From Sulfurimonas sp. (lineage in GTDB: Bacteria; Campylobacterota; Campylobacteria; Campylobacterales; Sulfurimonadaceae), in the NCBI GenBank assembly GCA_013791885.1, contig VMSZ01000026.1, positions 1 to 50,497 on the forward strand: a stretch of 50,497 bases of DNA, read 5' to 3'. The notes below the pieces were generated by a model. That model ran no database searches and was not told the DNA's origin. It saw only the letters and a list, made by a program, of their open reading frames with translations. The position numbers were made by a program, and so were the translations under genes. Positions 8,563-28,660 of the stretch are shown in pieces. Each line of letters begins with the position of its first letter. Within the stretch, counting starts at the first letter, position 1.

Positions 8563-8574
8563 CTTGATATCAAG
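8563..8574. promoter_or_regulatory. Perfect 12-bp palindrome in divergent region
   Basis: CTTGATATCAAG lies between the porin (minus) and tetR (plus) genes. It could be an operator for either gene. It resembles an FNR half-site pair but lacks the 4-base spacer of a true FNR box. Confidence 0.3.
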
Positions 8575-8662
8575 GTTTATTGAGGAAATTTATTTTGAGT
8601 GTTTAGTATCTTGACTCTGCAATTCTTTAGAGCAATTCAAAAGTTATAAAATATCTTTATAG

Positions 8663-8668
8663 TATAAT
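8663..8668 (+). promoter_or_regulatory. -10 box upstream of tetR
   Basis: A perfect TATAAT sits about 26 bases before the tetR start codon, with no clear -35 box. It probably drives the operon of tetR and the sensor-like hydrogenase pair. Confidence 0.45.
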
Positions 8669-8694
8669 TTTTCACGAACTAAAGGAGAAAATCT

Positions 8695-9282
8695 TTGACA
8701 GATAAGAAACAACTTAAAAGAGAGCAGATTATGCAGTCTGCTTTAGAATTATTTGCTTTAAAAGGATTTTACAGTACGAGTGTGCCTGATATTGCGAGTT
8801 CGCTTAAAATGAGTGTGGGTAATCTGTATAATTATTTTAAATCAAAAGATATCCTTGCAAAAGAAATTATCAAATATATTTCCGCTTATCTTGGTAAAAA
8901 AATCAGAGAAGTCAACGAGCAAAATATTTCTACGGAAGAAAAAACAAGAAAGATTATTGAAGTTTATTTTAAAACCGCTATGTTGAAACCCGAAATGATA
9001 GATTATTTTTTAAGAATTTATCTCTCCACCCGTGAAGTTTTCAATGAGGGTTGCGAGGGAATGATTTGTGTGAATGAATTTGTCACAGAGATAATGATTT
9101 ACTTTGAAGAGGGTGTGAAGTGCGGCGATTTAAGAGACCAGGATTTTTTTAGTGCTTTTGGTCTTTTTATGGGTTATCTTGGCGGCATGGTTTTTTTAAA
9201 AGGTGAAAAAATTCTACCTAAAGAGTTGGACGAATATGTTGATGATATTGCGTTTAACATCTACAAAGCTCTGAGTAAATAA
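8695..9282 (+). CDS. TetR/AcrR family transcriptional regulator
   Basis: This 195-residue protein has an N-terminal TetR helix-turn-helix at roughly residues 8-55 (ALELFALKGFYSTSVPDIA, then SVGNLYNYFKSKDIL). An all-helical C-terminal ligand/dimerisation domain follows. The start is TTG, supported by an excellent ribosome binding site AAAGGAG. It is separated by only 5 bp from the sensor-type hydrogenase small subunit gene, so they are almost surely co-transcribed. TetR proteins bind short palindromes. Two near-identical 18-bp palindromes in this window precede hydA and the nickel/hyp operon, so this protein is the best candidate to control them. The ligand is unknown; a link to H2 is inferred from context. 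Confidence 0.88.
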   Translation: MTDKKQLKREQIMQSALELFALKGFYSTSVPDIASSLKMSVGNLYNYFKSKDILAKEIIKYISAYLGKKIREVNEQNISTEEKTRKIIEVYFKTAMLKPEMIDYFLRIYLSTREVFNEGCEGMICVNEFVTEIMIYFEEGVKCGDLRDQDFFSAFGLFMGYLGGMVFLKGEKILPKELDEYVDDIAFNIYKALSK

Positions 9283-9287
9283 ACGCA

Positions 9288-10163
9288 ATGAAAACAAAAG
9301 TATTATGGTTGAGTGCAATCGCATGCAACGGTAATACGCACTCCTTTTTAAATTATCCCTATATGGAACAGTTTTTAAACGACTTTGAATTCATCTACCA
9401 TCCTGTTATTGACACCGATTATACATTAGAAGAGATAGTCTCTTCTGTAATAGCTTGCGATATTTTACTCATTGAAGGTTCAATTGCAGAGGATTTTCAA
9501 AGAGCAGATACTTCGATTGTAAAAATTATTCAAACATATTCCAAAATTGTAAAAAAAATTGTCACAGTCGGAACATGTGCCACTTTCGGTGGTATTTTTA
9601 GAGAAAGTGACTATAAAAATGTAAGCGGACTTCATTTTAATCAAGAACTTCCGACAAATACCTTTAGAGAGATAAAAGATAAAACTGTCTCAATCTCTGG
9701 ATGTCCAATCCATCCTGAAGTTTTGGTCAATACACTCTATGCTATAAAAAAAGATATTCGTTTAGAATTGGACAAATATCTTAGACCAAAAGAGTACTTT
9801 GCCTATACAATTCATAATGGCTGTACAAGAAATGAATACTTTGAATACAAAGTTGACAACCATAAATTCGGTGAGTTAGAGGGTTGTATGTTTTACGATC
9901 ATGGCTGCCAAGCGCCTTATACACAGGGAAGTTGTAATAAAATTTTATGGAATGAAATAAATTCAAAAACAAGAGCAGGACTTCCTTGCATGGGATGTAC
10001 GGAGCCAGGCTTTCCAAGAGAAAATCTTTTTAGCACAAAGAAAAATATGGGTATACCCGAAAACTTGCCGGTTGGGGTAGGGAAACGGGTTTATTTGACT
10101 TTGGCAGGAATTACAAAAGCCTTTACTATAGAAAGACTAGAAAAGAAGTTATTAAATGATTAA
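9288..10163 (+). CDS. Cytoplasmic [NiFe] hydrogenase small subunit, sensor/group 2-like
   Basis: The 291-residue iron-sulfur subunit has no Tat signal and no C-terminal membrane anchor, so it is cytoplasmic, as in group 2 (HupU/HoxB sensor and related) hydrogenases. Visible cluster ligands are C13 (in IACNGNTH), VGTCATFGG and SGCPIHPE for the proximal cluster; HNGC, EGC and HGC for the distal cluster; GSCNK and PCMGC for the medial one. The usual second cysteine of the first motif is Asn16. The gene follows tetR by 5 bp and overlaps the large subunit gene by 8 bp. Possible roles are H2 sensing, or H2-driven ferredoxin reduction as proposed for group 2d enzymes of Aquifex and Campylobacterota. 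Confidence 0.85.
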   Translation: MKTKVLWLSAIACNGNTHSFLNYPYMEQFLNDFEFIYHPVIDTDYTLEEIVSSVIACDILLIEGSIAEDFQRADTSIVKIIQTYSKIVKKIVTVGTCATFGGIFRESDYKNVSGLHFNQELPTNTFREIKDKTVSISGCPIHPEVLVNTLYAIKKDIRLELDKYLRPKEYFAYTIHNGCTRNEYFEYKVDNHKFGELEGCMFYDHGCQAPYTQGSCNKILWNEINSKTRAGLPCMGCTEPGFPRENLFSTKKNMGIPENLPVGVGKRVYLTLAGITKAFTIERLEKKLLND

Positions 10164-11415
10164 ACTTATAGAAAAAATTGAGGGTGAAGCGAAGCTAGAC
10201 TTCAATATGAAAGATGGCAAAATAGATTTTGTAGATATAGCGTTTATGTCCACAAGAAATATTGAGAATATTTTAAAAGGTAAAGCTGCGTTTGATGCAC
10301 TTGTCATAAACCCTCGTGTTTGCGGTATTTGCGGTCATGCACACTTAATGGCTACCGTACAGGCATTAGAGAGTTGTTACAAAGATTTGCAATTAACAAA
10401 CAAAGCAAAAATAATTCGAGAACTTACCCTCAACTTTGAACTTATACAAAATCATTTTAAATGGTTTTACTTAACACTTCTGCCTCTCTTTGGAAAAAAA
10501 CAACAAGTGCTTAAGGCTACATATCCTACGCAGCTTATGGCCAAAGCCATTGCAATTTTTGGCGGGCAGTATCCACATACTTCTTATGCCGTAGTCGGCG
10601 GAGTGGTATGCGATATTACGCATACCGACCTGATTAAACTTCAGCATTATATAGAGGAGACTGTCAAGTTTTTTGAGGAGAATCTCGTTCGTTCACAAAG
10701 CCAATCTTTTTTGGAGAGCGAAAATGTGGATGATGTGTTGAGTAAGGAGGGTGACTTAATTGAGATTTTGAAAATTATCATAAGCAATGAGTGGCTGGAG
10801 CTTGGAAAAAGTTATGACAGATATATTGTTTTTGGTGCAAATAGCTATTTTACCAAGGGTAAATCTATGAAAACGCGCCTCTCAAATAATATCTCACTAA
10901 CATCGGTTAAAGAGAGCAAGCAAGAGACATCCTATGCGAAAAATGTGAGTTTTAAAAACAAATACTATGAAGTCGGTCCTCTTGCTCGAGCGATGATAAA
11001 TAAAACACCACTTATAAAAGATGCCCATAAAAGATATGGGGACAGTATGTTTAGTAGAATTTTGGCAAGAGTATGTGAAGTATCCCAACTGCTGCATCAC
11101 TCAAAAAAACTTATTGCCGAGCTTGATTTGAGTGAAGCCTCATACATTAAACCCTCTCAAGAGATATCAAAATTAACTGGAGCAGGAAGCGCCTCAGTAG
11201 AAGCTGCCCGAGGTTCTCTTATTCATAAAGTCGAACTTGAAAATGGTTTGATAAAAAATTATGAAATCATAACTCCGACACAGTGGAACCTCAGTGGCGG
11301 TACAAAAGACAACCCAGGTGTATCACAAAAAGCTATGATTGGACTAGAAGAAATTAGTATCGCTGAGCTTGTTTTTAAAACGTTTGATGTCTGTTCCGTT
11401 TGCACTACTCATTAA
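10156..11415 (+). CDS. Cytoplasmic [NiFe] hydrogenase large subunit, sensor/group 2-like, no C-terminal extension
   Basis: The 419-residue catalytic subunit carries the N-terminal NiFe motif RVCGICGHAH (C56, C59) and the C-terminal motif DVCSVCTTH (C413, C416). The protein ends exactly at that His419, so there is no tail for a maturation protease to remove. Lack of the tail is a hallmark of regulatory hydrogenases (HupV/HoxC). The residue before the first C-terminal cysteine is Val instead of the common Pro. The outer-shell arginine is kept (AARGSLIH), as is TPTQWN. With the preceding gene it forms a cytoplasmic heterodimer. No PAS-kinase partner (HupT/HoxJ) lies nearby; the operon has tetR instead. 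A catalytic group 2d role cannot be excluded. Confidence 0.85.
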   Translation: MIKLIEKIEGEAKLDFNMKDGKIDFVDIAFMSTRNIENILKGKAAFDALVINPRVCGICGHAHLMATVQALESCYKDLQLTNKAKIIRELTLNFELIQNHFKWFYLTLLPLFGKKQQVLKATYPTQLMAKAIAIFGGQYPHTSYAVVGGVVCDITHTDLIKLQHYIEETVKFFEENLVRSQSQSFLESENVDDVLSKEGDLIEILKIIISNEWLELGKSYDRYIVFGANSYFTKGKSMKTRLSNNISLTSVKESKQETSYAKNVSFKNKYYEVGPLARAMINKTPLIKDAHKRYGDSMFSRILARVCEVSQLLHHSKKLIAELDLSEASYIKPSQEISKLTGAGSASVEAARGSLIHKVELENGLIKNYEIITPTQWNLSGGTKDNPGVSQKAMIGLEEISIAELVFKTFDVCSVCTTH

Positions 11416-11494: not shown

Positions 11495-11500
11495 TAAAAT
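11495..11500 (+). promoter_or_regulatory. Possible -10 box for hydA operon
   Basis: TAAAAT lies immediately upstream of the palindrome at 11507-11524, so a repressor bound there would cover the transcription start region. No convincing -35 or sigma54 box is visible. Confidence 0.3.
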
Positions 11501-11506
11501 TGAAAG

Positions 11507-11524
11507 AATGAATGAGCATTCATT
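11507..11524. promoter_or_regulatory. 18-bp palindromic operator candidate upstream of hydA
   Basis: AATGAATG-AG-CATTCATT is a perfect inverted repeat with a 2-base centre, 28 bp before the hydA start codon. The reverse complement of the site at 23548-23565 matches it at 16 of 18 positions, including the AG centre. The size and symmetry fit a TetR-family dimer site. Confidence 0.65.
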
Positions 11525-11552: not shown

Positions 11553-12779
11553 ATGATTGAAAAACGAGAGGCTTTGGCAAAAATGTTCAGTGCTAAAGGA
11601 TCGAAAATAAATACGAACCGCGGTGCGGAGTATTATGATTCTTTAATGGAAACTATGAAAAAAAGGCTAAATGAATTGGAGCAGACGGCTGCTGCTTCAA
11701 AGATGTCTATTACTTCTGTTTTAGAAGCGGAAGGCTTAGATAGAAGAGATTTTATGAAATGGGCAAGTGCTGCGTGTGCCGCGTTAATGCTCCCGGCAAG
11801 TTTTACCCCTCTTATCGCACAGGCGGCAGAGCTTATGAACAGAGTTCCTGTTATTTGGATTGAGTTGCAAGACTGTGCAGGTAACTCCGAAGCCATTTTA
11901 AGAAGTGATGCTCCGACTATTGATGAGCTTATTTTAGAAACAATCTCGTTGGAATTTAATGAAACGCTTATGGCAGCAGCCGGGCATCAGGCTGAAGAGC
12001 ATTTAGAAGAAGCTATGCATACCTTCAAAGGGAAGTATCTTTGTGTTGTAGAAGGTTCTATTCCTCTTGGCATGGATGGCTTATATGGAACTATTGGTGC
12101 AAAAGCTGAAACTTTTAAAGATCACTTGCTCCGTGTTGCAAAAGATAGTGCTGCAGTTGTTGCTGTTGGTACGTGTGCAACATTCGGTGGTGTTCCCGCA
12201 GCATCTCCAAATCCAACAGGTGCAGTCGGTGTTCAAGATGTTGTAAAAGGAAAAGCAATTATAAACATTCCTGCTTGTCCTGCTAATCCCGCAAATATTA
12301 CAGGAACGATTTTACATTTTGTTCTTACAGGCCAAGTTCCGGAACTGGACCACTTAAACCGTCCTAAGTTTGCGTTTGGCTATAGAATCCATGATAATTG
12401 TGAAAGACGTGCACACTTTGATGCAGGCGAGTTTGTGGAAGAGTGGGGCGATAAAGGCGCACAAAATAACTTTTGTCTTTATAAAATGGGATGTAAAGGT
12501 CCTATGACATTTAACAATTGTTCTATTGTCCGTTACAACAGCGGGACGAACTGGCCTATTGGTGCAGGACATGGTTGTATAGGCTGCTCTGAACCACAAT
12601 TTTGGGATAAATATGCTCAAGAGAGACCAATGGCAGATACACACTTTAAAGCACCAGGCGGCGGAGTAGAAAAAACTGTTGATGAATTTGGTTTAGGATT
12701 ACTCACCGCAGCAGGTATAGGAATAGGTATCCATGCAGCAGCAAGTGTTTTAGCTGGAAAAAAAGAGGGAGATGAATAA
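11553..12779 (+). CDS. hydA: [NiFe] uptake hydrogenase small subunit (Tat-exported)
   Basis: The 408-residue iron-sulfur subunit passes electrons from the NiFe site through three clusters to the cytochrome b subunit. The Tat motif DRRDFMKW has its arginines at residues 64-65, after an unusually long 60-residue charged leader. A C-terminal membrane anchor (GLGLLTAAGIGIGIHAAAS) follows the catalytic region. Cluster motifs are QDCAGNSE (C108, with Asn111 where a second Cys is usual), VGTCATFGG, PACPANP, HDNC, FCLYKMGC, NNC and HGCIGC. It resembles Wolinella and Helicobacter HydA (group 1b). The ribosome binding site (GAGGGG) 8 bases upstream supports this start. Its stop overlaps the hydB start by one base. 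Confidence 0.95.
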   Translation: MIEKREALAKMFSAKGSKINTNRGAEYYDSLMETMKKRLNELEQTAAASKMSITSVLEAEGLDRRDFMKWASAACAALMLPASFTPLIAQAAELMNRVPVIWIELQDCAGNSEAILRSDAPTIDELILETISLEFNETLMAAAGHQAEEHLEEAMHTFKGKYLCVVEGSIPLGMDGLYGTIGAKAETFKDHLLRVAKDSAAVVAVGTCATFGGVPAASPNPTGAVGVQDVVKGKAIINIPACPANPANITGTILHFVLTGQVPELDHLNRPKFAFGYRIHDNCERRAHFDAGEFVEEWGDKGAQNNFCLYKMGCKGPMTFNNCSIVRYNSGTNWPIGAGHGCIGCSEPQFWDKYAQERPMADTHFKAPGGGVEKTVDEFGLGLLTAAGIGIGIHAAASVLAGKKEGDE

Positions 12780-14530
12780 TGGCAAGCAAACATATAATAG
12801 TAGATCCAATAACAAGGATTGAAGGGCATTTAAGAATTGAAGCGGTCATAGACGAGAACAATGTTATTACGGATGCATATGCTAGTTCTACAATGTTTAG
12901 AGGTATAGAGACTATTTTAAAAGGAAGAGATCCTAGAGATGCCGGCCTTCTGGCAATGAGAATATGCGGCGTTTGTACAGGTACTCACTATCAAAGAAGT
13001 ATAGAGGCAGTTGAAGATGCGTTTAAGGTAACTATTCCTAAAAACGCAAGAATTGTAAGAAATTTAATTCAGGGTGCTCTTTATGTTCATGACCATGTTG
13101 TGCATTTTTACCATCTTCATGCATTAGACTGGGTAGATATCACGGGTGCTCTCAATGCTGATCCTAAGCTTGCTGCTGAAGAAGCTCTTAAGTGGACAGA
13201 CACTCCATATGGAGCAGGGGAAGGTGACCTCAGGGCTATTCAAGAGAGAGTTGGAAAATTTGTAAAACAAGGGCGTCTAGGAATTTTTTCAAACGCATAT
13301 TGGGGAAATAAAAATTATAAACTCTCTGCTGAGCAAAACTTAATTGCCGTAGCTCACTACTTGCAGGCACTTGATATGCAAAGAGATATGTCAAAAATGA
13401 TGGCTATTTTCGGCGGTAAAATGCCTCACCCTCAATCACTTGTTGTTGGCGGTGTTACATGTGTTCAAGATATTCAAAACCCAATGAGAATTGCAGAGTA
13501 TAAATCTTTACTTAACAAAGCAAGAAAATTCATTAAGAATGCTTATTTGGTAGATGTCCTTATGGCAGGTACTATTTATGCAGACGAGGCACTTGATGGT
13601 ACAGGTTCTGGACTTAAAAATTATATGAGTTACGGAGATTTTAAACTTGACGATACAGGTTTTTATAATTCAGCAAGTTTATTCCCTTCAGGCGTAGTTT
13701 TAAATGGTGATTTGACGAAACTTTATCCGCTAGATCAAACGAAGATTACGGAAGATGTTTCTCATGCATGGTATGAAGGTGCAAATGATAAAGGTCTTCA
13801 CCCGTATGATGGAGTGACAAATCCTAAGTACACCGGTTTAGAGAAGAAAGAGGACGGGTACTCCTATTTAAAAACAAATGAAAAATATTCTTGGATTAAA
13901 TCTCCGCTGTATGATGATACAAGAATGGAAGTCGGCCCACTTGCAAGAATAGCTGTTGGTCTTGCTGCAGGTGATGTTAATATCACAAAATATGCCGTAG
14001 GATTTTTGACAAAGCTTGGAAAAACTTTAGGTCTTGAAGGCGCTGCTCCGGCATCTGTGATTTTTTCAACAGTAGGCAGAACAGCCGCACGTGCTATTGA
14101 GACTGAACTGATGGCTGATGTTATGATGGGCTGGGTTGATGAACTGGCTGCTAATGTTGCAGCAGGCGATGTGAGTACTTGGACAGAATTTGATTTTGAC
14201 AAAGTTTCTAAAGATGCCAGAGGTTTTGGTATGGCGGAAGCTCCTCGTGGCGGTTTAGGTCACTGGGTAGTCATTAAAGACGGCAAGATTGAAAACTATC
14301 AGGCGGTAGTTCCTTCAACATGGAATGCTGCACCAAGGGATTATAAAGGCAGAATGGGCGCTTACGAAGCTGCTCTTGTCGGTACTAAAGTATCTAATCC
14401 GGAACAACCACTGGAAATACTTAGAACTGTACACAGTTTTGACCCTTGTATTGCATGTGCTGTTCATATTGTGGACACCAAAGGAAAAGAACTTAGTAGT
14501 TTCAAAGTAAACACTAGCTGTGCCGTATAA
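12779..14530 (+). CDS. hydB: [NiFe] uptake hydrogenase large subunit
   Basis: This catalytic subunit, 583 residues, oxidises H2 in the periplasm. It starts with VDPITRIEGHLRIE and carries the L1 motif RICGVCTGTH and the L2 motif DPCIACAVH (His563). Twenty residues follow that His, the tail removed by the protease HydD after nickel insertion. The conserved outer-shell arginine is in APRGGLGHW. It is exported with HydA by the Tat system. Presence of the cleavable tail contrasts with the cytoplasmic large subunit at 10156-11415. It overlaps hydA by one base, and hydC starts 10 bp after its stop. Confidence 0.96.
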   Translation: MASKHIIVDPITRIEGHLRIEAVIDENNVITDAYASSTMFRGIETILKGRDPRDAGLLAMRICGVCTGTHYQRSIEAVEDAFKVTIPKNARIVRNLIQGALYVHDHVVHFYHLHALDWVDITGALNADPKLAAEEALKWTDTPYGAGEGDLRAIQERVGKFVKQGRLGIFSNAYWGNKNYKLSAEQNLIAVAHYLQALDMQRDMSKMMAIFGGKMPHPQSLVVGGVTCVQDIQNPMRIAEYKSLLNKARKFIKNAYLVDVLMAGTIYADEALDGTGSGLKNYMSYGDFKLDDTGFYNSASLFPSGVVLNGDLTKLYPLDQTKITEDVSHAWYEGANDKGLHPYDGVTNPKYTGLEKKEDGYSYLKTNEKYSWIKSPLYDDTRMEVGPLARIAVGLAAGDVNITKYAVGFLTKLGKTLGLEGAAPASVIFSTVGRTAARAIETELMADVMMGWVDELAANVAAGDVSTWTEFDFDKVSKDARGFGMAEAPRGGLGHWVVIKDGKIENYQAVVPSTWNAAPRDYKGRMGAYEAALVGTKVSNPEQPLEILRTVHSFDPCIACAVHIVDTKGKELSSFKVNTSCAV

Positions 14531-14540
14531 GGAGCCTGTC

Positions 14541-15233
14541 ATGAGTTATAAAAAAGTACAGAGGATGACTGGGGCGATGAGAATCAACCACTGGGTGGTT
14601 GCTATCTCTATGATAGTTGCAATTGTAACCGGCCTTTATATCGGTCATCCCTATTATCAAAGTTTTATCGCAGATCCAGCTGTTGATAAATATGTAATGG
14701 CGTGGAATAGATTGGCACACTTGATTGTTGCTATTATCTTTGACGTGAGTAGTATCGTAGTCGCCTACTTATACTTTTTTTCAAGATTTGAAAAACCTTA
14801 TAAGAAGTTAATACCGACATTTACAAATATAAAAGAATTTTTTGATGTGTTAGTTAATCTTATAACACTCAATCGTGTGAAAAAGTTTGATTCGTCCCAT
14901 GCAGACAGCTTTAACGCTATCTTTTTCTTTGTGTTTCATATGTTATTAGTTTGGATGCTTTTGACTGGACTTCAAATGTATGTTCATGGACTTGCATCGG
15001 GGATGAGTTCCATTGGTGAATGGTGGCCTGCAATGTTGCATTTGGCAACTGATTGGACTGTTACTGTTACAGGCGGTACCTTTATGGATGTGAGAATATC
15101 GCACCATTACACTATGTATGCTATTATCGCTTGGATTATGTTTCATGTTTATTACCAAGTGTGGCGAACTATCTTCTGGAAAGAGGGAGATATCAATATA
15201 GTGGTTGGCGGGAATAAGTTTATAGAAGAATAA
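14541..15233 (+). CDS. hydC: Ni/Fe-hydrogenase b-type cytochrome subunit
   Basis: HydC anchors HydAB to the membrane and transfers electrons to menaquinone through two b hemes. The 230-residue protein has four to five membrane helices with histidines in the expected places (RINHW near the N-terminus, RLAHL, FHMLLVW, and ISHHYTMY with FHVYYQVW near the C-terminus). The ATG at 14541 is preferred over an upstream in-frame start inside hydB because AAGGAG lies at the right distance and the protein then begins MSYKKVQRMTG, like family members. It is followed by a structured spacer and hydD. Confidence 0.93.
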   Translation: MSYKKVQRMTGAMRINHWVVAISMIVAIVTGLYIGHPYYQSFIADPAVDKYVMAWNRLAHLIVAIIFDVSSIVVAYLYFFSRFEKPYKKLIPTFTNIKEFFDVLVNLITLNRVKKFDSSHADSFNAIFFFVFHMLLVWMLLTGLQMYVHGLASGMSSIGEWWPAMLHLATDWTVTVTGGTFMDVRISHHYTMYAIIAWIMFHVYYQVWRTIFWKEGDINIVVGGNKFIEE

Positions 15234-15337: not shown

Positions 15338-15907
15338 ATGAGAACAGCAATAGTTGGAGCGGGTACAGTTATTTACCAAGATGAAGGTGTTGGCGTTTAT
15401 GCTGCAAAATATCTTGAAGAGAATTTTACATTTTTAGATGATGTGACATTAGTTGATGGCGGAGTGTTAGGCTTTCAGTTAATGACATACTATCAAGAGT
15501 ATGACAAAGTAATAATTCTCGATACTATAACCATGAAGGATGAGGTCGGTTCTATTTATAACCTTCCATCAGAAGAACTTTTGGGTTTAGGAAGTTATAA
15601 ACAAACAGCTCATGAAGTAGAAATCATAGAAATGTTAGAAATATGTTCACTTTTAGAAAGGATGGCAGAAGTTAATATCATTGGAATAATTCCAAAAGAT
15701 ATTGAGACTGTAAATATTGGTTTAACGAACGAGATGAAAGCTGCGTTTCACAAACTTGTAAACGCAGCAACAGCTGAATTAGATAAATCTGGTATAAAAT
15801 ATAAAAGAAATTCTTCTACAGTAGAACTTGAAGATATAATACAAATATATGCAAATCCACAAAGTGAGTTTAAAAATGGCTATCCAACAAATTATCAAAT
15901 ACAATAG
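15338..15907 (+). CDS. hydD: Hydrogenase maturation endopeptidase
   Basis: HydD cleaves the C-terminal tail of HydB after nickel insertion. The M52 peptidase fold is evident from AIVGAGTVIYQDEGVG at the N-terminus. The three nickel-probing residues known from HycI/HybD correspond to E16, D62 (in ILDTI) and H92 (in KQTAHE). At 189 residues it is slightly longer than the usual 160-180. It lies directly downstream of hydABC, which supports HydB as its target. The sensor-type large subunit has no tail and would not need it. It overlaps hydE. Confidence 0.92.
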   Translation: MRTAIVGAGTVIYQDEGVGVYAAKYLEENFTFLDDVTLVDGGVLGFQLMTYYQEYDKVIILDTITMKDEVGSIYNLPSEELLGLGSYKQTAHEVEIIEMLEICSLLERMAEVNIIGIIPKDIETVNIGLTNEMKAAFHKLVNAATAELDKSGIKYKRNSSTVELEDIIQIYANPQSEFKNGYPTNYQIQ

Positions 15908-17291
15908 CGAAAGTAAATATTTTGCAGGTTTTTTACAAGCCATGATAAAAGAGAGCGGGATTGTAGGCAGTGTTTCTCAAAGTGATGAGAGCATTGTCTT
16001 AAAACTTGATGACAGTGATGCAAACGCAGTGACTGAATTTAGTGCATTGTCAAATAAGTATTTGGCACATTCTCTCTTTTTGGGTGAAATACAGACTATA
16101 AATATAGATGCAAATCACCCTAAAGCCGACTTTACATCTCCAAGTTATGACATCTCTGCATGTCCGAGATGTCTGGAAGCATTAACAGATCCTTCAAGTG
16201 AGGATTATTTAAACGATTCTCTCAGATGCAATCACTACTCAAACGAAATAAGCGCAGAGTTTTATGACAATAAATATTACTCCCCTCACTACACTCAGGG
16301 AAGTGCTCTTTTAGTAGTGGATCCAAAAAATGTACAAAAACTTTTCGTCATGACCCCTGATGAGATAAAAGCTCTTTTTAGTATAGAAAAACCGACTCTA
16401 AAGGTGACTATTAAGGACGAAACGCTTAAAGAATTAAGCGGAAAAAAATTTATAAATATTAAATCTCCTCACAGTATAAAAAGTAATCTTGTTGCCCTAA
16501 ATGCAAGAGAGAGTGAAATTGAGTATCTTTTTTATGAAGAGAGTGATGATCTAAAAGTCGCAGTTGTACAAAAAAATATTACTGTTATTAGAGATGTCAG
16601 AGGCGTGAGCAAAAAGCTTCAAGATTTGCATACAGATAATGTACTTAACAGGTTTTTAAATATTGCCAAAGAGGCTGGATTCATAAAGGGCGTCATTGGT
16701 GTAAATCTTAGCAGCAGAAATGGAATTACTTTTCTTGTATCCAATGAGACTGGAGCTAAAATAGTCATTAAGTTTCAGCCTTTTGTACTTAATGATGTTT
16801 TAGAACTTATGGCAAAAGATAAAAATAAATCAAGGCTGCTTCCAAATTTTTCACAAAAATTTCCGCAGATAATGCAGGAGCTCTCAGAGAACGAGAATTA
16901 TGGTCTTTTTGAGACTATTGCAACTGTTTTAGAGTTACAAGAAAAAAGTTTTGAATCTGTAAGCGATAAATCTTTAGAGTTTCACGGAAACGGCGGACTT
17001 AAAATAGATGCGAACTTCAGTGATGAAGGTTTTGACTATGTCTCTTTTTTAGGTTCTATTATGAGCTTTAAACTTGCAAATACTGATGAACATTACTTAG
17101 CGTACTCAATTTTTGAAGCCCTTGGAGATATGGCTATTCAAACGCTGTTACAGTTAAAGGTAAGGTTTAAAGTTGAGAATGTTGTCATGATGGGCGATAT
17201 GTTTGAAAATAGCGTACTTTACAGTAGAATATTGAGTAAATTTACAACAAGTAATCCATATTTTTCAAAAGGTTTCGCATTAGATGATTAA
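15876..17291 (+). CDS. hydE: Hydrogenase accessory protein HydE (HypF-related)
   Basis: This 471-residue protein is needed for hydrogenase maturation in Helicobacter and Wolinella; the exact reaction is not known. The sequence shows a diverged HypF-like zinc-finger segment (ACPRCLEALTDPSSEDYLND, then LRCNHYS). Its C-terminal part matches the end of HypF/Kae1-type proteins, with VVMMGDMFENSVLYSRIL against VILSGGVFQNKTLLELL in the neighbouring HypF. No acylphosphatase domain is seen. The start at 15876 (MAIQQIIKYN) is chosen over 15849 because of better ribosome binding site spacing; it lies within the end of hydD. hypF overlaps its 3' end by 8 bp. Confidence 0.8.
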   Translation: MAIQQIIKYNSESKYFAGFLQAMIKESGIVGSVSQSDESIVLKLDDSDANAVTEFSALSNKYLAHSLFLGEIQTINIDANHPKADFTSPSYDISACPRCLEALTDPSSEDYLNDSLRCNHYSNEISAEFYDNKYYSPHYTQGSALLVVDPKNVQKLFVMTPDEIKALFSIEKPTLKVTIKDETLKELSGKKFINIKSPHSIKSNLVALNARESEIEYLFYEESDDLKVAVVQKNITVIRDVRGVSKKLQDLHTDNVLNRFLNIAKEAGFIKGVIGVNLSSRNGITFLVSNETGAKIVIKFQPFVLNDVLELMAKDKNKSRLLPNFSQKFPQIMQELSENENYGLFETIATVLELQEKSFESVSDKSLEFHGNGGLKIDANFSDEGFDYVSFLGSIMSFKLANTDEHYLAYSIFEALGDMAIQTLLQLKVRFKVENVVMMGDMFENSVLYSRILSKFTTSNPYFSKGFALDD

Positions 17292-19500
17292 AGAAGGCTA
17301 TTTTATACAAGGGGTAGTCCAAGGTGTCGGATTTCGCCCTTTTGTGTATAAAATGGCGCATGAGCTAAATTTAAAAGGCTTTGTGAAAAATAGTGCAACT
17401 GGCGTAAGCATTGAAGTTCAAGGACAAAAAGAAGCACTTGAACTTTTCCAACTCTATTTAAGTTCAAGAATACCGCCGCTTACGCGCATAGATTCCATCA
17501 CAAAAACGCAGCTTACTCCGACAAATTTACAAAGTTTTGAGATTATTCAAAGCGACACTGCCGCATCGTCCAAATCTGCTCTTGTTTCACCCGATATAGC
17601 CATTTGTAAAGAGTGTCTGCAAGATGTCAAAAATGCAGGAAAGTATCATAACTATTTTGCCACAAACTGCACAAACTGCGGACCGAGATACTCTATAATC
17701 CAAACTGTTCCTTATGACAGAAAACAGACCTCCATGAGCAAGTTCGAGATGTGCTCTTCGTGTCAGGAAGAGTATGCAAATCCGCTCAACAGACGTTACC
17801 ATGCACAGCCAATCTCCTGTAACTCCTGCGGCCCGACACTCTCTCAAAGTATTGGGAAAACGGCTGCGTTTATCAACAATGGAAAAATTGTTGCTATTAA
17901 GGGAATAGGCGGATTTCATATTGTTTGTGATGCAAGCAATCATGAAGTGGTTCTCAAGTTGAGGGAGTTTAAAAACCGTCCTTCAAAGCCTTTTGCCATT
18001 ATGTGCAGAGATGCAGAGCAAGTGCAAGAAATTGCCACAGTAAACGTGAAGGAGTTGGAACTTCTCACGTCCAAAGAAGCACCTATAGTTATTTTAGATA
18101 AAATCCAAAACGCAGGTATAAAACTCTCTGCGTACGTAGCTCCAAATATCAATAGAATAGGCTGCTTTTTACCCTATACTGCTTTGCATCATCTTCTTTT
18201 TAAACTTTTAAAAAACCCTATTGTTGCGACGAGTGCAAACTTGGGCAATGAGCCTATCATAACCGATAGCGAGACACTCATGAGCAAACTTCCCTTTGTA
18301 GAATTTATTCTTGATTTTGACAGAGATATCATCAATGGGGTGGATGATTCTCTCGTACAGGTTATAGCAGGTAAAAAGCAGACTTTAAGGCTTGCTAGGG
18401 GATATGCTCCAAAAGTCATAAAACTACCGTATAAGAGTGAAAAAAAGATTTTGGCAGTCGGGGCAAATGCGAAAAATTCAGTTGCGTTTGTTATAGATGA
18501 CCAGATAATAATTTCACCCCATATAGGTGATTTGGACTCTTCAAAAGCCTTTGGATTTTTTGAGCGGACAATTGAGACTTTTAAAAATTTTTACGACTTT
18601 GAGCCGGAACTTATTGTTCACGATAAACATCCTTCTTATATGAGTACAAAATGGGCAAAAACGCAGGGCAAAAAGCTTGTAGCAGTGCAACACCATTTAG
18701 CCCATATTTATGCCGCTAAAGCTGAGTTTGGACTTCATGGCGATTACCTCGGTTTTAGTTTTGACGGAACAGGTTATGGGGAAGAGAAGGTGAATGGCGA
18801 AGCCAGAGAGGCTGCGCTGGGGCAGGGAACACTCTGGGGTGGAGAAGTGTTTGTTGGAGATACCCGTAAATACAGTTTCAAAACCATTAAACTTTTAGGC
18901 GGTGAAAAGGCTATAAAAGAGCCTCGAAGAGTAGCCCTGAGTATGCTTTTTGAAAAATACACTCTAGAGATGATTATGAAATTGCCATTAGCCTGCGTCA
19001 CTGCGTTTAGCGCTGAAGAGATAAAAATACTGCATCAAAGTTACAGTAAAAATCTCAACGCTCCACTTAGCTCTTCTGTTGGGAGAATGTTTGACGCAGT
19101 TGCAAGTTTTGCAAATCTGCTGCAGTTTCAAAGTTATGAAGGTGAAGCCGGACTCATTTGCGAGCAAAATTATAAGCCACAAATCACAGAAGCATTTGAG
19201 TACAAAATAGTTGATGGAATAATAGACATCGCTTTTGATTTCTTTGACAAAGAGATAGTTTCAAAGTTCATAAATACTTTGGTGAATATCGTGATAGAAA
19301 TTGCAAAAACGGAAAAAATGGAAGTTATTCTCAGCGGCGGCGTTTTTCAAAACAAAACACTGCTAGAGCTTCTTATAAAAGAGTTTGAAGAAGAAAAAGT
19401 TACTTATTATGTCCAAGAGGAAACCGCCATCAATGACGGCGGAATAGCCTTGGGACAGCTCTATTATTATTTAAGTGCACGTAACATTATTGGAATTTAG
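17284..19500 (+). CDS. hypF: Carbamoyltransferase HypF
   Basis: HypF makes the cyanide precursor of the NiFe centre by converting carbamoyl phosphate to carbamoyl-adenylate and transferring the carbamoyl group to the HypE C-terminal cysteine. Domains in order: acylphosphatase (GVVQGVGFRPFVYKM, residues about 10-90), two zinc-finger units (CKECLQD with CTNCGPRY; CSSCQEEY with CNSCGP, about 105-180), a YrdC-like nucleotide domain (about 195-375), and a Kae1-like carbamoyltransferase domain (about 390-738) with HHLAHIYAA and FDGTGYG. The 738-residue length is normal. It is the last gene of the hyd cluster, and its end overlaps the convergent CZB gene by 14 bp. Confidence 0.96.
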   Translation: MIKEGYFIQGVVQGVGFRPFVYKMAHELNLKGFVKNSATGVSIEVQGQKEALELFQLYLSSRIPPLTRIDSITKTQLTPTNLQSFEIIQSDTAASSKSALVSPDIAICKECLQDVKNAGKYHNYFATNCTNCGPRYSIIQTVPYDRKQTSMSKFEMCSSCQEEYANPLNRRYHAQPISCNSCGPTLSQSIGKTAAFINNGKIVAIKGIGGFHIVCDASNHEVVLKLREFKNRPSKPFAIMCRDAEQVQEIATVNVKELELLTSKEAPIVILDKIQNAGIKLSAYVAPNINRIGCFLPYTALHHLLFKLLKNPIVATSANLGNEPIITDSETLMSKLPFVEFILDFDRDIINGVDDSLVQVIAGKKQTLRLARGYAPKVIKLPYKSEKKILAVGANAKNSVAFVIDDQIIISPHIGDLDSSKAFGFFERTIETFKNFYDFEPELIVHDKHPSYMSTKWAKTQGKKLVAVQHHLAHIYAAKAEFGLHGDYLGFSFDGTGYGEEKVNGEAREAALGQGTLWGGEVFVGDTRKYSFKTIKLLGGEKAIKEPRRVALSMLFEKYTLEMIMKLPLACVTAFSAEEIKILHQSYSKNLNAPLSSSVGRMFDAVASFANLLQFQSYEGEAGLICEQNYKPQITEAFEYKIVDGIIDIAFDFFDKEIVSKFINTLVNIVIEIAKTEKMEVILSGGVFQNKTLLELLIKEFEEEKVTYYVQEETAINDGGIALGQLYYYLSARNIIGI

Positions 19501-23465: not shown

Positions 23466-23547
23466 GAGAAAATTTTAGCACAGTTTGGTCCCGAAAATAA
23501 CTAAGAAAGAATGAAATTAATATTAATTTTAAAATAAAGTAATAGAA

Positions 23548-23565
23548 TATGAATGCTTATTCATT
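23548..23565. promoter_or_regulatory. 18-bp palindromic operator candidate upstream of nickel/hyp operon
   Basis: TATGAATG-CT-TATTCATT is an imperfect palindrome ending 15 bp before the transporter start codon. Its reverse complement differs from the hydA site at 11507-11524 at only 2 of 18 positions. A repressor bound here would lie over the ribosome binding site region and transcription start. Confidence 0.6.
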
Positions 23566-23580: not shown

Positions 23581-24222
23581 ATGGAAAATTTAGGTTTACT
23601 TCTTATTTTTTGGTATGGCGTTTTACATGCGTTTGGCCCTGATCATCTTACTGCCATTGCAGATTTTTCTATAGGTAAAAATAAAAAAAAGACTATAACC
23701 ATTACCGTATTGTTTGCAATCGGCCACGGTTTAACGCTTTTTGTTTTTGCAAAGTTACTTGAATCTTATCATATAAGCGATGCTGTTTTAGGCTATGGCG
23801 ATACAATTTCCTCTTTAGTGATTTTAGGCATGGGGCTCTATCTATTATATATGGTCTTCAGTGACAAGATTCAGCTGAATAAACACTACCACGAGGGCAA
23901 AGAACACATTCATATCTGGTTTGGAAAAGAACACGAACACAGCAATAAAGACACAGCCTCTGCATTTACCATTGGTGCGTTGATGGGAATAGGAGGAGTG
24001 CGTGGAATGTTAGTCACGCTGGGGATGATTGAAGGGCAAAGTGTTGATTTAGTTATGGTGATGGCGTTTGCTCTTGGAGTAATGGTGATTTTTGTAGGCT
24101 TTGGTGCGGTGATACTCACCATTAATAAAAATCTTTTAAATTCAAAACAAAATCTACGAAGAGTTTTCGCTACCGCGGGAGTCATTTCCCTTGTTGTGGG
24201 CTCAAATATGATAGTCGGATAA
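23581..24222 (+). CDS. Nickel/cobalt transporter-like membrane protein
   Basis: This 213-residue membrane protein has about six helices and a first-helix motif HAFGPDHLTAI (H16, D21, H22) like the metal-recognition motif of NiCoT/UreH/HupE-type nickel permeases. A histidine-rich loop (HYHEG, EHIHIW, KEHEHS) lies between helices 3 and 4. It heads the operon that encodes the nickel-insertion proteins HypB and HypA, so nickel uptake for hydrogenase is the likely job. GGAGATTG precedes the ATG. Cobalt or iron cannot be excluded as substrates. Confidence 0.78.
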   Translation: MENLGLLLIFWYGVLHAFGPDHLTAIADFSIGKNKKKTITITVLFAIGHGLTLFVFAKLLESYHISDAVLGYGDTISSLVILGMGLYLLYMVFSDKIQLNKHYHEGKEHIHIWFGKEHEHSNKDTASAFTIGALMGIGGVRGMLVTLGMIEGQSVDLVMVMAFALGVMVIFVGFGAVILTINKNLLNSKQNLRRVFATAGVISLVVGSNMIVG

Positions 24223-24244: not shown

Positions 24245-25045
24245 ATGTGTAAAGATTGTGGTTGCAGTATAACTGATAATGTAAAAAGAGATAGTCATAA
24301 CCATGGTGAAGGACATTCACATGAACACAATCATGGAGATTCTCATTCTCATCAAGAAGCGCATGCACACTTACATGACAACCCTCAGCTTAATGATCCA
24401 AAAACTATCTCTGTCATTACAAAAATATTGGATAAAAACGACCAGGAAGCGGGGCATAATCGTCAGCACTTCAATGAACATGGCGTTTTGTGTATTAATC
24501 TTATGAGCTCACCAGGCAGCGGTAAAACGGCTCTTTTGGAGCACTTGGCCGATATTGCGGATTTTAAATTCGGTGTGGTTGAGGGTGACTTGGAAACAAG
24601 CCGCGATGCCGATAGGCTTAAGGCTAAAGGAATTCAGGCACATCAGATTCAAACAGGTTCAGCCTGTCACTTGGATGCATTTATGGTACATAAAGCGCTG
24701 CATCACATGGATTTAGACACTTTAGATGTCTGTTTCATAGAAAATGTAGGCAATCTAGTCTGTCCTGCTTCGTATGATGTCGGAAGTCATTTAAACATTG
24801 TGCTTGTCAGTATTCCCGAAGGTGAAGACAAGATAGCAAAATATCCGGTAATGTTTCGTCAGGCAGATTTGATTTTGTTTACAAAAATGGACTTACTGCC
24901 ACACTTTGAATATGACATAGCAAAAGAGAAAGAGATGGCAAGAAAACTCAAACCAAATGTAGACATTCTTGAAGTAAGTACAAAAGATGAAGCAAGCCTT
25001 AAAAAAGTAGCACAGTGGATTAAGTTCAAAATGGAGATGAGATAA
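24245..25045 (+). CDS. hypB: Hydrogenase nickel incorporation GTPase HypB
   Basis: HypB is the GTPase that helps load nickel into the hydrogenase large subunit with HypA. The 266-residue chain starts MCKDCGC, equivalent to the high-affinity nickel site CxxCGC known from E. coli HypB. A histidine-rich stretch with 11 His between residues 18 and 44 follows, which would store nickel. The G domain has the P-loop SSPGSGKTALL, the metal-dimer site residues in GSACHLDAF and VGNLVCPA, and FTKMDLL as the NKxD equivalent. It overlaps hypC by one base. Confidence 0.96.
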   Translation: MCKDCGCSITDNVKRDSHNHGEGHSHEHNHGDSHSHQEAHAHLHDNPQLNDPKTISVITKILDKNDQEAGHNRQHFNEHGVLCINLMSSPGSGKTALLEHLADIADFKFGVVEGDLETSRDADRLKAKGIQAHQIQTGSACHLDAFMVHKALHHMDLDTLDVCFIENVGNLVCPASYDVGSHLNIVLVSIPEGEDKIAKYPVMFRQADLILFTKMDLLPHFEYDIAKEKEMARKLKPNVDILEVSTKDEASLKKVAQWIKFKMEMR

Positions 25046-25335
25046 TGTGCCTCTCAATACCAAGCAAAGTTGTCAAAATTGACAAAGAAAATAACATGGC
25101 AACCGTGGATACAATGGGTGTTAAACGCGACGCCAGTTTAGACTTAATGGCTGAAGATGACGTTAAAGTAGGAGATTATGTTCTTTTACACATTGGTTTT
25201 ATTATGAATAAAATTGACGAAGAAGACGCGATGCTGAGTCTGGAGACTTACAAAGAAATCATAGAAGCGATGGATGAAGAAGAACGACAGAGGACGATTT
25301 TAGAAGATGACAACTGCGTCAATAGAGGCGTATGA
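25045..25335 (+). CDS. hypC: Hydrogenase assembly chaperone HypC
   Basis: HypC carries the Fe(CN)2CO unit with HypD and delivers it to the large-subunit precursor. It begins MCLSIPSKV, with the essential Cys2 and the expected beta-barrel (VGDYVLLHIGFIMNKI). The 96-residue length is normal. It overlaps hypB at the start codon. Confidence 0.95.
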   Translation: MCLSIPSKVVKIDKENNMATVDTMGVKRDASLDLMAEDDVKVGDYVLLHIGFIMNKIDEEDAMLSLETYKEIIEAMDEEERQRTILEDDNCVNRGV

Positions 25336-25336
25336 A

Positions 25337-26458
25337 ATGCAACTAGAACTTAAAAATCTTTATAATGATTTTAGAGATGCAAAAACTATCAAAGCGTATG
25401 CAAAAATTATTCAAGAAGATGCAAAAAAGTTAAATAAAGAAATTCATATAATGGAAGTTTGCGGCGGGCATACCCATACCATTATGAAGTATGGTGTTTT
25501 ACAGCTTTTGCCCCAAAATATCAAGTTTGTGCATGGCCCGGGTTGTCCTGTTTGTATCATGCCAAAAGAGAGGATTGACCACGCTTATGTTTTGGCGATG
25601 CAGAGCGATGTCATCTTAGTCACACTCGGAGACATGATAAAAGTACCGGGAAGTAACGGAAGCCTGCAAGACGCAAGAAGCAAAGGGGCTGATGTGCGCT
25701 TTGTGTACTCTCCTATGGATTGTCTTAAAATTGCAAGTGAAAATCCGGACAAAAAAATCATCTTTTTTGCTATAGGCTTCGAAACCACAACACCAATGAC
25801 GGCTGCGCTCTTAAACGCAGTGATCAACAAAAATATACCAAACATCTTTTTTCACATCAACCATGTAACTGTCCCTGAAGCTATGGCTGCTCTTATAGCA
25901 GATGATGCTTCCAATATAGACGCATTTTTAGGGCCTGCTCATGTGAGTGTGATAAGCGGAAGTAAAATTTACGAAGAGTTTCCACGAGACTACAAAAAAA
26001 CCGTAGTTGTTTCGGGCTTTGAACCGGTGGACGTAATGCAGTCTATCAGCATGATAGTCAAACAATTTATAGAGAACAGATGTGAGCTTGAAGTTGAATA
26101 TAAACGTGCTGTGAGCTATGAGGGAAACAGTAAAGCTCAGGAACTTATCAATAAATACTTTGAAAAAGCGCAAAATTTCAGATGGAGAGGCTTGGGTGAT
26201 ATTCCTCGGAGCGGGCTCAGACTTCGAGATGAATATGACGCTCTAAACGCAGAGGTACTTTACAAAGATATATTACCGACACAAAAAATAGACGACCATA
26301 AACTTTGTATCTGCGGAGATATATTAAGAGGTAAGGCTACACCGCCACAGTGCACAATTTTTGGAACGGCATGTAAACCGACAACACCGATTGGGAGCTG
26401 TATGGTGAGCTCTGAGGGTGCTTGTGCAGCGTATTATAAATATGGGAACTTGATATGA
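25337..26458 (+). CDS. hypD: Hydrogenase formation protein HypD
   Basis: HypD is the [4Fe-4S] scaffold on which the Fe(CN)2CO group is built with HypC and HypE. At 373 residues, its signature stretches are visible: MEVCGGHTHTIMKYG, HGPGCPVCIMP, FFAIGFETTTPMTA and FGTACKPTTPIGSCMVSSEG with the C-terminal cysteines. The start at 25337, directly after the hypC stop, is preferred over one inside hypC because it has GAGG upstream and matches family N-termini. It overlaps the CHAD gene by 4 bases (ATGA). Confidence 0.95.
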   Translation: MQLELKNLYNDFRDAKTIKAYAKIIQEDAKKLNKEIHIMEVCGGHTHTIMKYGVLQLLPQNIKFVHGPGCPVCIMPKERIDHAYVLAMQSDVILVTLGDMIKVPGSNGSLQDARSKGADVRFVYSPMDCLKIASENPDKKIIFFAIGFETTTPMTAALLNAVINKNIPNIFFHINHVTVPEAMAALIADDASNIDAFLGPAHVSVISGSKIYEEFPRDYKKTVVVSGFEPVDVMQSISMIVKQFIENRCELEVEYKRAVSYEGNSKAQELINKYFEKAQNFRWRGLGDIPRSGLRLRDEYDALNAEVLYKDILPTQKIDDHKLCICGDILRGKATPPQCTIFGTACKPTTPIGSCMVSSEGACAAYYKYGNLI

Positions 26459-27153: not shown

Positions 27154-27656
27154 AAAAACTCTATTTGGTCAGACATGCAAAATCAAGCTGGGAAGATTCT
27201 AGGCTCAGTGATTTTGAGAGACCTTTAAATAAGAGGGGCAAGTTAAACGCTCCATTTATGGGCACTTTGCTTTTTGAAAAAAAAGTAAAGCCTGAACTAA
27301 TTATCTCGAGTCCTGCGTTTAGAGCCAAAACAACAGCTGAACTTATTGCAAAAGAGTTGGGTTACACCAAGGAGATTCTATTTTTACAAGATATTTATGA
27401 AGGCAGTGTGAGCAGTTTAGAGAAAATTTTGTTGAGCCTCAACGATGAAAACAATTCAGTACTTTTATTTGGTCATAATCCAAGTCTCAATATGTTTGCA
27501 CAACAATATGTTGACTTTGAAGAGAATATACCGACATGCGGGGTCCTTGAGATAGAGTTTAATTGTAAGAGCTGGAGTAAGATAGATAGAATAAACGCAA
27601 GGCTTGTATCGTTTGAATATCCAAAAAAATACAGTTCAGCGGAAGTAAAAAAATGA
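27150..27656 (+). CDS. sixA: SixA-type phosphohistidine phosphatase
   Basis: The 168-residue histidine phosphatase has the catalytic RHAKSSW motif near the N-terminus (YLVRHAKSSW), SSPAFRAKTTAE, and the second catalytic His in LFGHNPSLN. SixA removes phosphate from histidine in phosphorelay or PTS-type proteins. It is coupled by 4-base overlaps to CHAD upstream and hypE downstream. The CHAD-SixA pairing is known from other bacteria; its insertion between hypD and hypE is unusual. The target here is unknown. Confidence 0.88.
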   Translation: MKKLYLVRHAKSSWEDSRLSDFERPLNKRGKLNAPFMGTLLFEKKVKPELIISSPAFRAKTTAELIAKELGYTKEILFLQDIYEGSVSSLEKILLSLNDENNSVLLFGHNPSLNMFAQQYVDFEENIPTCGVLEIEFNCKSWSKIDRINARLVSFEYPKKYSSAEVKK

Positions 27657-28651
27657 ATAAAACAATAACTCTAGCAAACGGAAACGGTGGGGAAGAGAAT
27701 AATGAACTTATTTCTCAGGTCTTTTATAAAGCTTTTAAAAATGAGATTTTAGAAAAAAGCGAAGATGCGGCAATAATTCATAATGGAGAACTTGCGTTTT
27801 CTACGGACAGTTTTACGGTTTCACCCTTGTTCTTTGCCGGTGCAGATATAGGAAAATTGGCGGTTTGCGGAACTTGTAACGATCTGGCTATGATGGGGGC
27901 AAAACCAAAATATCTTACGTGCAGTGTTATTATAGAAGAGGGTTTTGAAGTTGTAGAACTTGAAAGAATTGTTGCAAGTATGAAAATAGAGCTTGAAGTA
28001 AACGCAGCGATTGTTGTCAGCGGCGACACAAAAGTTGTACCCAAAGGAAGTGTAGACAAAATCTTCATCAATACTACAGGCATTGGTGAAGTCCTCAAAA
28101 AAGGCATTAGCTCCAATAATATTACTGAAGAGGATGTTATTCTTGTCAATCGTGATATTGGCGCTCATGGAGCAACGATATTTGCAGCACGCGAGGGAAT
28201 GGAGATGAGCAGTGCTTTGAAGAGTGACTGTAATTCACTTTTCCCTCAGGTAAAAGCGCTTCTGGATGCCGGTATAAATATTACAGCAATGCGCGATGCT
28301 ACAAGAGGCGGGGTAAGTGCTGTTTTGAATGAATGGGCCAAACAATCAAATATTTGCATAGAGGTAGAGGAAGAGAAAATTCCTGTGAGTGATGAGGTCA
28401 AAGGAATTTGCGAAATGCTCGGTTTTGAAGCGACGGCTCTTGCAAATGAGGGAACTTTTGTGCTCGCTGTAAAAAGAGAAGACGCACAAAGAGCCGTTGA
28501 AATTCTGCAAAACTTTGAATTTTGCTCAAGTGCAACTGTCATAGGTCAGGTAACGCAAACACATCTTAAAAAAGTTGTCTTAAAAAGTGCTTGGGGAACT
28601 TCAAGATTTTTAGAAACGCCGACAGGCGAACTACTGCCTAGAATATGCTGA
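27653..28651 (+). CDS. hypE: Hydrogenase maturation protein HypE
   Basis: HypE dehydrates the carbamoyl group placed on its C-terminal cysteine by HypF to make the thiocyanate that supplies CN ligands. The 332-residue PurM-like ATPase ends in LLPRIC, with the required terminal Cys. Nucleotide-binding features include the N-terminal LANGNGGEENNEL, FSTDSFTVSPLFF and VSGDTKVVPKG. It starts within the sixA stop (ATGA overlap) and is followed by hypA after 9 bp. Confidence 0.96.
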   Translation: MNKTITLANGNGGEENNELISQVFYKAFKNEILEKSEDAAIIHNGELAFSTDSFTVSPLFFAGADIGKLAVCGTCNDLAMMGAKPKYLTCSVIIEEGFEVVELERIVASMKIELEVNAAIVVSGDTKVVPKGSVDKIFINTTGIGEVLKKGISSNNITEEDVILVNRDIGAHGATIFAAREGMEMSSALKSDCNSLFPQVKALLDAGINITAMRDATRGGVSAVLNEWAKQSNICIEVEEEKIPVSDEVKGICEMLGFEATALANEGTFVLAVKREDAQRAVEILQNFEFCSSATVIGQVTQTHLKKVVLKSAWGTSRFLETPTGELLPRIC

Positions 28652-28660
28652 GGTGATGTG

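Follow-up and report, generated by a model that had tools for sequence, protein, structure and literature searches.

The DNA analysed here is a 50,497-nucleotide stretch from Sulfurimonas sp. (assembly GCA_013791885.1, contig VMSZ01000026.1, positions 1 to 50,497 of the forward strand; hereafter the window), which carries two similar palindromes, one before the hydABC operon for an exported hydrogenase and the other before the nicO-hyp operon for nickel uptake and hydrogenase maturation. A first-pass annotation, made from the letters alone, had proposed that these sites bind one regulator, perhaps the product of a tetR gene found in the same window. In what follows we present evidence that both palindromes are, very probably, operators of this TetR protein and place hydABC and nicO-hyp under joint control. 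The features on which the argument turns are as follows.

8695..9282, + strand: tetR, a TetR-family regulator and the proposed binder of both operators (TetR_N, PF00440, 1.4e-13, residues 12-58)
9288..10163, + strand: hupS, small subunit of a cytosolic [NiFe]-hydrogenase, no Tat signal found, 5 bp behind tetR
10156..11415, + strand: hupL, large subunit, ending FDVCSVCTTH-stop without a C-terminal extension
11507..11524 (core 11509-11522), unstranded: predicted operator before hydA, a perfect 18-bp palindrome, conserved in relatives
11553..12779, + strand: hydA, small subunit of a Tat-exported hydrogenase and putative target (TIGR00391, 1e-138; TAT_signal)
23548..23565 (core 23550-23563), unstranded: predicted operator before nicO-hyp, 16/18 identical to the first, conserved in relatives
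23581..24222, + strand: nicO, NicO-type nickel transporter and putative target (PF03824, 7.7e-05, below cut-off), whose orthologs precede hypB in relatives

The palindromes in the window and in the genome

The sequence AATGAATGAGCATTCATT occupies positions 11507-11524 as a perfect inverted repeat of 8+2+8 bases and ends 28 bp 5' of the ATG of the open reading frame (ORF) at 11553, hydA. The second site, at 23548-23565, is identical to it at 16 of 18 positions on the other strand and ends 15 bp 5' of the ATG at 23581. Both are as the first-pass annotation had described them, and its statement that the window holds no other full copy also stood, a scan with up to three mismatches returning these two places only (three matches, 11507-11524 being counted on both strands). 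The shuffled window gave a mean of 0.24 such matches, and none of 100 shuffles reached three. The AT-rich half-sites that had been reported near 19967 are present, but TTAATGAATAAAATATTAA is not an operator, and a scan for the core with up to two mismatches found no match from 19505 to 20642. This region (19487-20590) holds divergent genes for a CZB-domain and a PAS-only protein, lying between the two operons without an operator between them, and the PAS gene was therefore dropped as an additional target in the window.

Across the whole genome (2,523,358 bases in 75 contigs) a search for the 18-mer with up to three mismatches returned one further place only, C26:47106, with three mismatches. 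The core of the palindrome, TGAATNNNNATTCA (TGAAT-N4-ATTCA), has four exact places in the 2.52-Mb genome, namely those before hydA and nicO and two others inside unrelated ORFs of 619 and 540 aa. Since these last two lie in ORFs, the hydA and nicO sites are the sole exact cores outside reading frames, a result that speaks against the random scatter by which the first-pass proposal might have fallen.

Conservation in relatives and co-occurrence with TetR

We searched 200 genomes of the family, the present one included, and individual genomes are cited below by G numbers. TetR had a match at 1e-10 in 107 genomes, 98 of which were counted as carrying orthologs, and matches to HydA, NicO and HupL were found in 140, 92 and 95 genomes, respectively. 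A full-length HydA of at least 68% identity was present in 85 genomes, all but three of which (G027, G036 and G044) contributed hydA upstream regions, 82 in total; among the 92 genomes that had a NicO match, 80 contributed nicO upstream regions. The core was scored over ten positions with at most one mismatch allowed, using the reversed pattern as a control; two second copies of hydA (L085 and L092) and a HydA class of ~51% identity were both dropped from the TetR tallies.

Within 150 bp upstream of hydA the core was present in 69 of 70 genomes with TetR versus 4 of 12 without (Fisher 1.2e-7), and before nicO in 53 of 55 versus 5 of 25 (Fisher 2.9e-12). Exact cores followed the same pattern (hydA 47/70 versus 2/12; nicO 44/55 versus 4/25). 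Extending the hydA regions to 200 bp gave 70/70 versus 5/12, through the addition of a site ~145 bp upstream in G003, which has TetR, and another with one mismatch at ~145 bp in G142, which lacks it. In the same 82 hydA and 80 nicO regions the reversed pattern had no exact match and only four and two matches, respectively, within one mismatch. The hydA tallies include 37 short regions, all from TetR genomes (G184, without a gene start, was set aside), every one of which carried the core within one mismatch, 21 exactly, compared with 2/37 and none exact for the reversed control. The site was likewise present in 22/22 further hydA regions from titled loci (reversed control 1/22 within one mismatch), which were all found through TetR and so have no TetR-less control. 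In the ~51% HydA class, whose proteins start ~28 residues later and which as sampled includes some remoter small subunits, 15 of 27 regions had an exact core ~30-50 bp 5' of the ATG or the aligned start, and the same kind of site is thus also found before a second hydrogenase class in relatives.

The palindrome is therefore kept before the hydA and nicO orthologs, where its presence goes with that of TetR, and this conservation and co-occurrence support the proposal that a single regulator may coordinate the structural and maturation genes of the hydrogenase.

Pairs of genomes differing in TetR were also compared along paths without a common branch. All branches were used, so that the pairing also relies on branches with weak support, some of them resting on short protein fragments; for nicO, 6 of the 80 rows had a protein fragment of <60 residues and were left out of the tree. 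For nicO, at most 18 pairs could be formed, in which site and TetR changed in the same direction in a mean of 13.8, in opposite directions in none and with no difference in the site in 4.2 (sign test 1.2e-4). For hydA the 11 pairs gave 6 same, 0 opposite and 5 no difference (sign test 0.031). Removal of the contig-edge genomes left 16 nicO pairs (13.5 same, 0 opposite, 2.5 no difference) and 8 hydA pairs (6, 0 and 2). Restriction to strongly supported branches left 7 pairs for hydA (~4 same, 0 opposite) and 4 for nicO (~3, 0), which are too few and not significant.

Exact cores were also seen at other genes in relatives. In G046, which has no NicO match, an exact core (L084:9528) is found at the beginning of a gene for a CbiM-type cobalt/nickel uptake protein (PF01891, 1e-43), the called ORF starting within the site and the domain nine residues into the protein; a different family of nickel transporter is there under the same kind of site. 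Exact cores also lie at or before the starts of genes for small DUF4395 proteins (PF14340) at L084:8623, L091:13323, L103:16450 and L095:1246, with a small ORF between core and DUF4395 gene at L103:16450, and these proteins are possibly a further member of the regulon. The divergent tetR and hydA-like genes of G143 have a single exact core between them (L083:10273), which could be the site for both. TetR paralogs of 36-44% identity are present in several relatives; G137:C1:960231-969997 has a second TetR paralog, 44% identical, and two more exact cores within 10 kb.

Position of the sites and direction of control

The distance from core to start codon is 12-37 bp for nicO and mostly 14-40 bp for hydA, with a few cases at 95-145 bp. 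When upstream regions were stacked on the core (a set that takes in both hydrogenase classes, the titled loci and a few TetR-less sites), TATAAT-like hexamers were seen to begin at -8 relative to the core in 35/119 hydA regions and at -7 in 16/59 nicO regions, compared with a mean per position of 1.8 and 1.4, respectively, at -50 to -16. Counting all hexamers between -9 and -5 of the core gave 51/119 hydA and 32/59 nicO regions. A -10-like hexamer just before the core would put the transcription start within the palindrome, as in a repressor-bound operator, and both sites of the window probably lie over a transcription start, with the following candidate -10 elements.

11495..11500, + strand: TAAAAT, a possible hydA -10 element located 14 bp 5' of the core, picked by eye and weaker than the nicO case
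23543..23548, + strand: TAGAAT, a probable -10 element that touches the nicO operator and appears to fit the -7 peak of the stacked relatives

Some tetR genes have the core before themselves (6/49 exact, 13/49 within one mismatch; control 0/49), and a site within three mismatches of the arms was found before tetR in 7/88 regions. No core was found before the tetR gene of the window in a two-mismatch scan from 8434 to 9380, and directly before hupS 0/84 regions had a site within three mismatches of the arms. From the promoter geometry, TetR is likely to repress both operons.

The TetR protein and its usual operon partner HupSL

HupS lies directly after TetR in 85 of 88 distinct loci, with a median gap of 5 bp, the misses being G135, G059 and G007. 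Both TetR and HupL are present in 92 genomes, whereas TetR is found alone in six and HupL alone in three, in all of which HupL is near a contig end. Among 93 HupL sequences (75 distinct), the C-terminal end is DVCS(V/I)CTTH-stop in 88 and CTTQ-stop in four, the remaining one being a short divergent frame; the ligand motif RxCGxCxxxH is present in 92/93 and the C-terminal CxxCxxH in 88/93, with Q for the last H in four. HupL of the window has no C-terminal extension, and HydB in the same window continues after DPCIACAVH. A Pfam TAT_signal, found in HydA, was not found in HupS at E 0.001, and the HupS sequence begins at the cluster domain.

Two cysteines of TetR, Cys120 and Cys125, are invariant in an alignment of 45 sequences (the window and 44 of 59 close loci) and present in 86 of 87 members of a larger TetR set, the exception being an alignment gap. 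The AlphaFold2 model of TetR (mean pLDDT 87.6) has an all-helical TetR fold, in which the two cysteines bound a short helix between two ligand-domain helices, beside a low-confidence stretch (residues 112-117, <50). The PDB matches listed in a fold search with this model are ordinary TetR-type regulators (TMq 0.62-0.80), none of them decisive. Of the cluster proteins of the window that were run against Pfam, none was recognised as a histidine kinase or response regulator, the protein at 20027 being PAS-only.

Three genomes (G007, G059 and G135) have TetR but neither a HupL match nor HupS behind TetR. G007 carries the site before hydA (one mismatch) and before nicO (exact), G059 before hydA (exact) and not before nicO, and G135, a genome 98% complete in which hypF takes the place of hupS after tetR (L077:17590-18882), before nicO (exact). 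A further three (G054, G104 and G130) have TetR without a HupL match; the comparison made here covers the first three. Since those three keep both TetR and site without HupSL, the site follows TetR rather than HupSL, and the case of G135 would favour TetR as the binder and slightly disfavour HupSL as a needed partner.

Other genes of the two operons

The remaining genes of the hydrogenase and maturation operons are listed below.

12779..14530, + strand: hydB, large subunit, with a C-terminal extension after DPCIACAVH
14520..15233, + strand: hydC, cytochrome b subunit (PF01292, 1.3e-21)
15338..15907, + strand: hydrogenase maturation protease, HycI family (PF01750, 2.1e-27)
15849..17291, + strand: HypF C-terminal-like ORF of 480 aa, called hydE in the first-pass annotation (weak PF22521, 0.00025, below cut-off)
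17284..19500, + strand: hypF, with five HypF-type domains
24245..25045, + strand: hypB (PF02492)
25045..25335, + strand: hypC (PF01455)
25307..26458, + strand: hypD (PF01924, 2.1e-150)
27653..28651, + strand: hypE (TIGR02124, 3.9e-132)
28658..29002, + strand: hypA (PF01155, 1.3e-32)

The 480-aa ORF (15849-17291) directly precedes the full hypF. Between hypD and hypE (26455-27656) lie genes for a CHAD-domain protein and a SixA-like histidine phosphatase, unexpected neighbours of hydrogenase maturation genes, and just 5' of the nicO operator an ORF on the reverse strand (22803-23465) has a weak, below-cut-off match to an IS1595 transposase.

Proposed mechanism and alternative explanations

In the mechanism that we propose, a TetR dimer on the palindromes would cover the transcription starts of hydABC(-hypF) and nicO-hypBCDEA and repress both, and the periplasmic energy-yielding hydrogenase, its nickel supply and the maturation machinery would be switched on together. 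A common operator before hydrogenase and nickel uptake/maturation genes points to demand-driven control rather than nickel homeostasis. HupSL is a natural candidate for the input because it is the usual operon partner of TetR, and the signal might be H2 or the redox state of the cell, reported by HupSL from the tetR operon. HupSL would then act as a sensor and not as an energy-yielding enzyme, a role to which we give roughly even odds, the route perhaps leading through the Cys120/Cys125 pair. A fully specified one-component H2 switch, in which HupSL oxidizes H2 and modifies or reduces TetR at Cys120-Cys125 so that TetR leaves both operators, is a more tentative idea that we regard as rather unlikely; the two cysteines might act there as a thiol/disulfide pair or bind a metal or cluster, with no kinase or response regulator involved, and direct electron or thiol signalling from HupSL to TetR is speculative. 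In comparison with the first-pass annotation, the points that are new are the coupling of tetR to hupSL, the probable position of the site over the transcription start, the second hydrogenase class and, in one genome, the second type of nickel transporter.

Several observations weigh against this reading. Five TetR-less genomes have a site before hydA (G085, G100, G035, G170 and G142); in the first three HupL is close to a contig end, and a tetR gene before hupS would therefore be off the contig, leaving G170, which has a one-mismatch site and just a 38% TetR paralog, and G142, with a one-mismatch core 145 bp before hydA. Another five have a site before nicO (G032, G035, G071, G117 and G197), among which the assemblies of G032 (81% complete) and G035 (230 contigs) are fragmented, the core of G071 has one mismatch and lies 25 bp before nicO, and G117 and G197 have an exact core with no TetR detected. 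The one-mismatch cores of G142 and G071 are perhaps due to chance. There are also genes at which a site is missing or imperfect: in G059, a TetR genome, nicO adjoins another hydrogenase and has none, nicO of G073 is broken and without a site, and the cores before the second hydA copies of G046 and G030 (L085 and L092) have one and three mismatches, respectively. Nor does copy number set the core apart, exact cores and reversed control being four each in the Sulfurimonas genome itself, and the core exceeding the control in just three of eight TetR genomes (46 versus 67 in sum). Degenerate matches are common in relatives and similar in number to the control, so that whole-genome counts are uninformative alone, and specificity must therefore lie in the positions of the sites, not in their number. 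The sensor part is weakened by the persistence of TetR without HupSL in G007, G059 and G135. Finally, in Sulfurospirillum multivorans hydB was transcribed under nearly all conditions tested and hupL went undetected under most of them (PMC5357620), a pattern that hardly suggests strong control by H2 in that organism.

The alternative that survives best shares the operator part of our proposal and differs in the input: TetR would regulate both operons in response to nickel, acyl-CoA or another metabolite unrelated to HupSL, which would be an ordinary cytosolic enzyme delivering, for example, electrons for carbon fixation. We consider this a serious possibility, if somewhat short of an even chance. 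The three genomes that keep TetR and sites without HupL fit it, as do the FadR structures among the fold matches of the TetR model, whereas the regular co-occurrence of TetR and HupL a few bases apart, with HupL-only cases confined to contig ends, speaks against it. Nickel in particular would be a surprising input, as one would expect a repressor that responds to plentiful nickel to turn off uptake and not the nickel enzyme, yet both share the operator.

That another transcription factor binds the palindromes, and that TetR merely travels with the hydrogenase cluster, is improbable. G117 and G197, which keep the nicO site with no TetR detected, would suit such a factor, and TetR binding is itself deduced from sequence comparisons; against it, site and TetR change together in separate pairs and never in opposite directions, TetR genomes without HupSL keep their sites, and some tetR genes carry the site themselves. 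A TetR acting as activator at these sites seems to us quite improbable: although the direction of control is likewise read from sequence, the core often lies just 3' of a -10-like hexamer and, in most cases, 12-40 bp 5' of the start codon, and an activator bound between the -10 element and the start codon would block the polymerase. Lastly, the palindromes could form hairpins and lie in AT-rich intergenic DNA, but it is hardly credible that they function in RNA, as a terminator or leader hairpin, or arose by chance, given their conservation across genera, their place at the promoter, their absence from most TetR-less genomes and the lack of any exact match to the reversed control.

Comparison with known systems

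The reading preferred here, TetR as the common repressor of hydABC and nicO-hyp with HupSL as its possible sensor, would define, for the H2 metabolism of chemolithoautotrophic Campylobacterota, a specific regulator together with its operator and target genes. No published description of such a regulon was found among the titles and abstract openings of the matches listed, subscription papers lying outside the search, and the parts available of PMC5357620, PMC12403661 and PMC5401914 report no operator before hydA or nicO. In S. multivorans a TetR-like gene lies directly 5' of hupSL; Kruse et al. (2017, PMC5357620) call the role of HupSL unclear and suggest hupSL itself as a possible target of repression by TetR. 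The sites described here differ from that suggestion in lying before hydA and nicO, with none of the 84 regions before hupS carrying one.

The protein resembles TetR-family local repressors such as FadR of Bacillus in its TetR_N domain, the TetR fold of its AlphaFold2 model and its short inverted-repeat promoter sites. The Bacillus FadR site has the same TGAATGA half-site as the palindrome. The TetR protein of the window differs in its hydrogenase and nickel targets, its invariant Cys120/Cys125 and its coupling to a hydrogenase, and it scored 38.6 bits with the NCBIfam FadR model, for which the cut-off is 200.

NikR controls nickel uptake and is another case of a nickel-linked regulator acting on hydrogenase genes. 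In Helicobacter hydABC is under the nickel-sensitive NikRS (PMC6682613). The regulator here is of another family, and a search for the NikR_C domain gave no match in the Sulfurimonas genome, compared with 5 of 14 control genomes.

By sequence, the closest solved relatives of HupS and HupL are the subunits of Huc (Hydrogenase-2; PDB 7utd and 7uur, with the 7uur/7utd small subunit for HupS). Huc is a mycobacterial enzyme of group 2. The first cluster motif of its small subunit has the same CxGN as HupS, in which an Asn replaces the Cys, and this Asn was for that reason not retained as a special trait. HupL differs from Huc in having only 419 aa and in its genomic setting with TetR. By published group descriptions HupSL would be a group 2D hydrogenase. 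The available text of a mangrove study (PMC12403661) regards group II hydrogenases, which are transcribed at lower levels, as possibly serving hydrogen sensing or energy conversion, and that of a phylum survey (PMC5401914) repeats a carbon-fixation hypothesis for group 2D. Our proposal would give cytosolic HupSL, the role of which this literature calls unclear or only hypothesizes, a function that can be tested.

Further parallels are HoxBC-HoxJ-HoxA of Cupriavidus and HupUV-HupT-HupR of Rhodobacter, in which a cytosolic hydrogenase without a large-subunit extension is linked to the control of an energy-yielding hydrogenase. These signal chains, and the lack of a C-terminal extension in the H2-sensing HoxC, are described in PMC10073562; the HupL end at the active-site motif resembles that of HoxC, a resemblance and not a proof. 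The present system differs in that the hydrogenase is coupled to TetR, none of the window proteins searched being recognised as a histidine kinase or response regulator, and in that H2 sensing is here a proposal. If HupSL does signal straight to TetR, the route would be a shorter one for H2 sensing than the known kinase systems, and such a one-component switch would account for the retention, in many Campylobacterota, of a cytosolic hydrogenase that is little transcribed.
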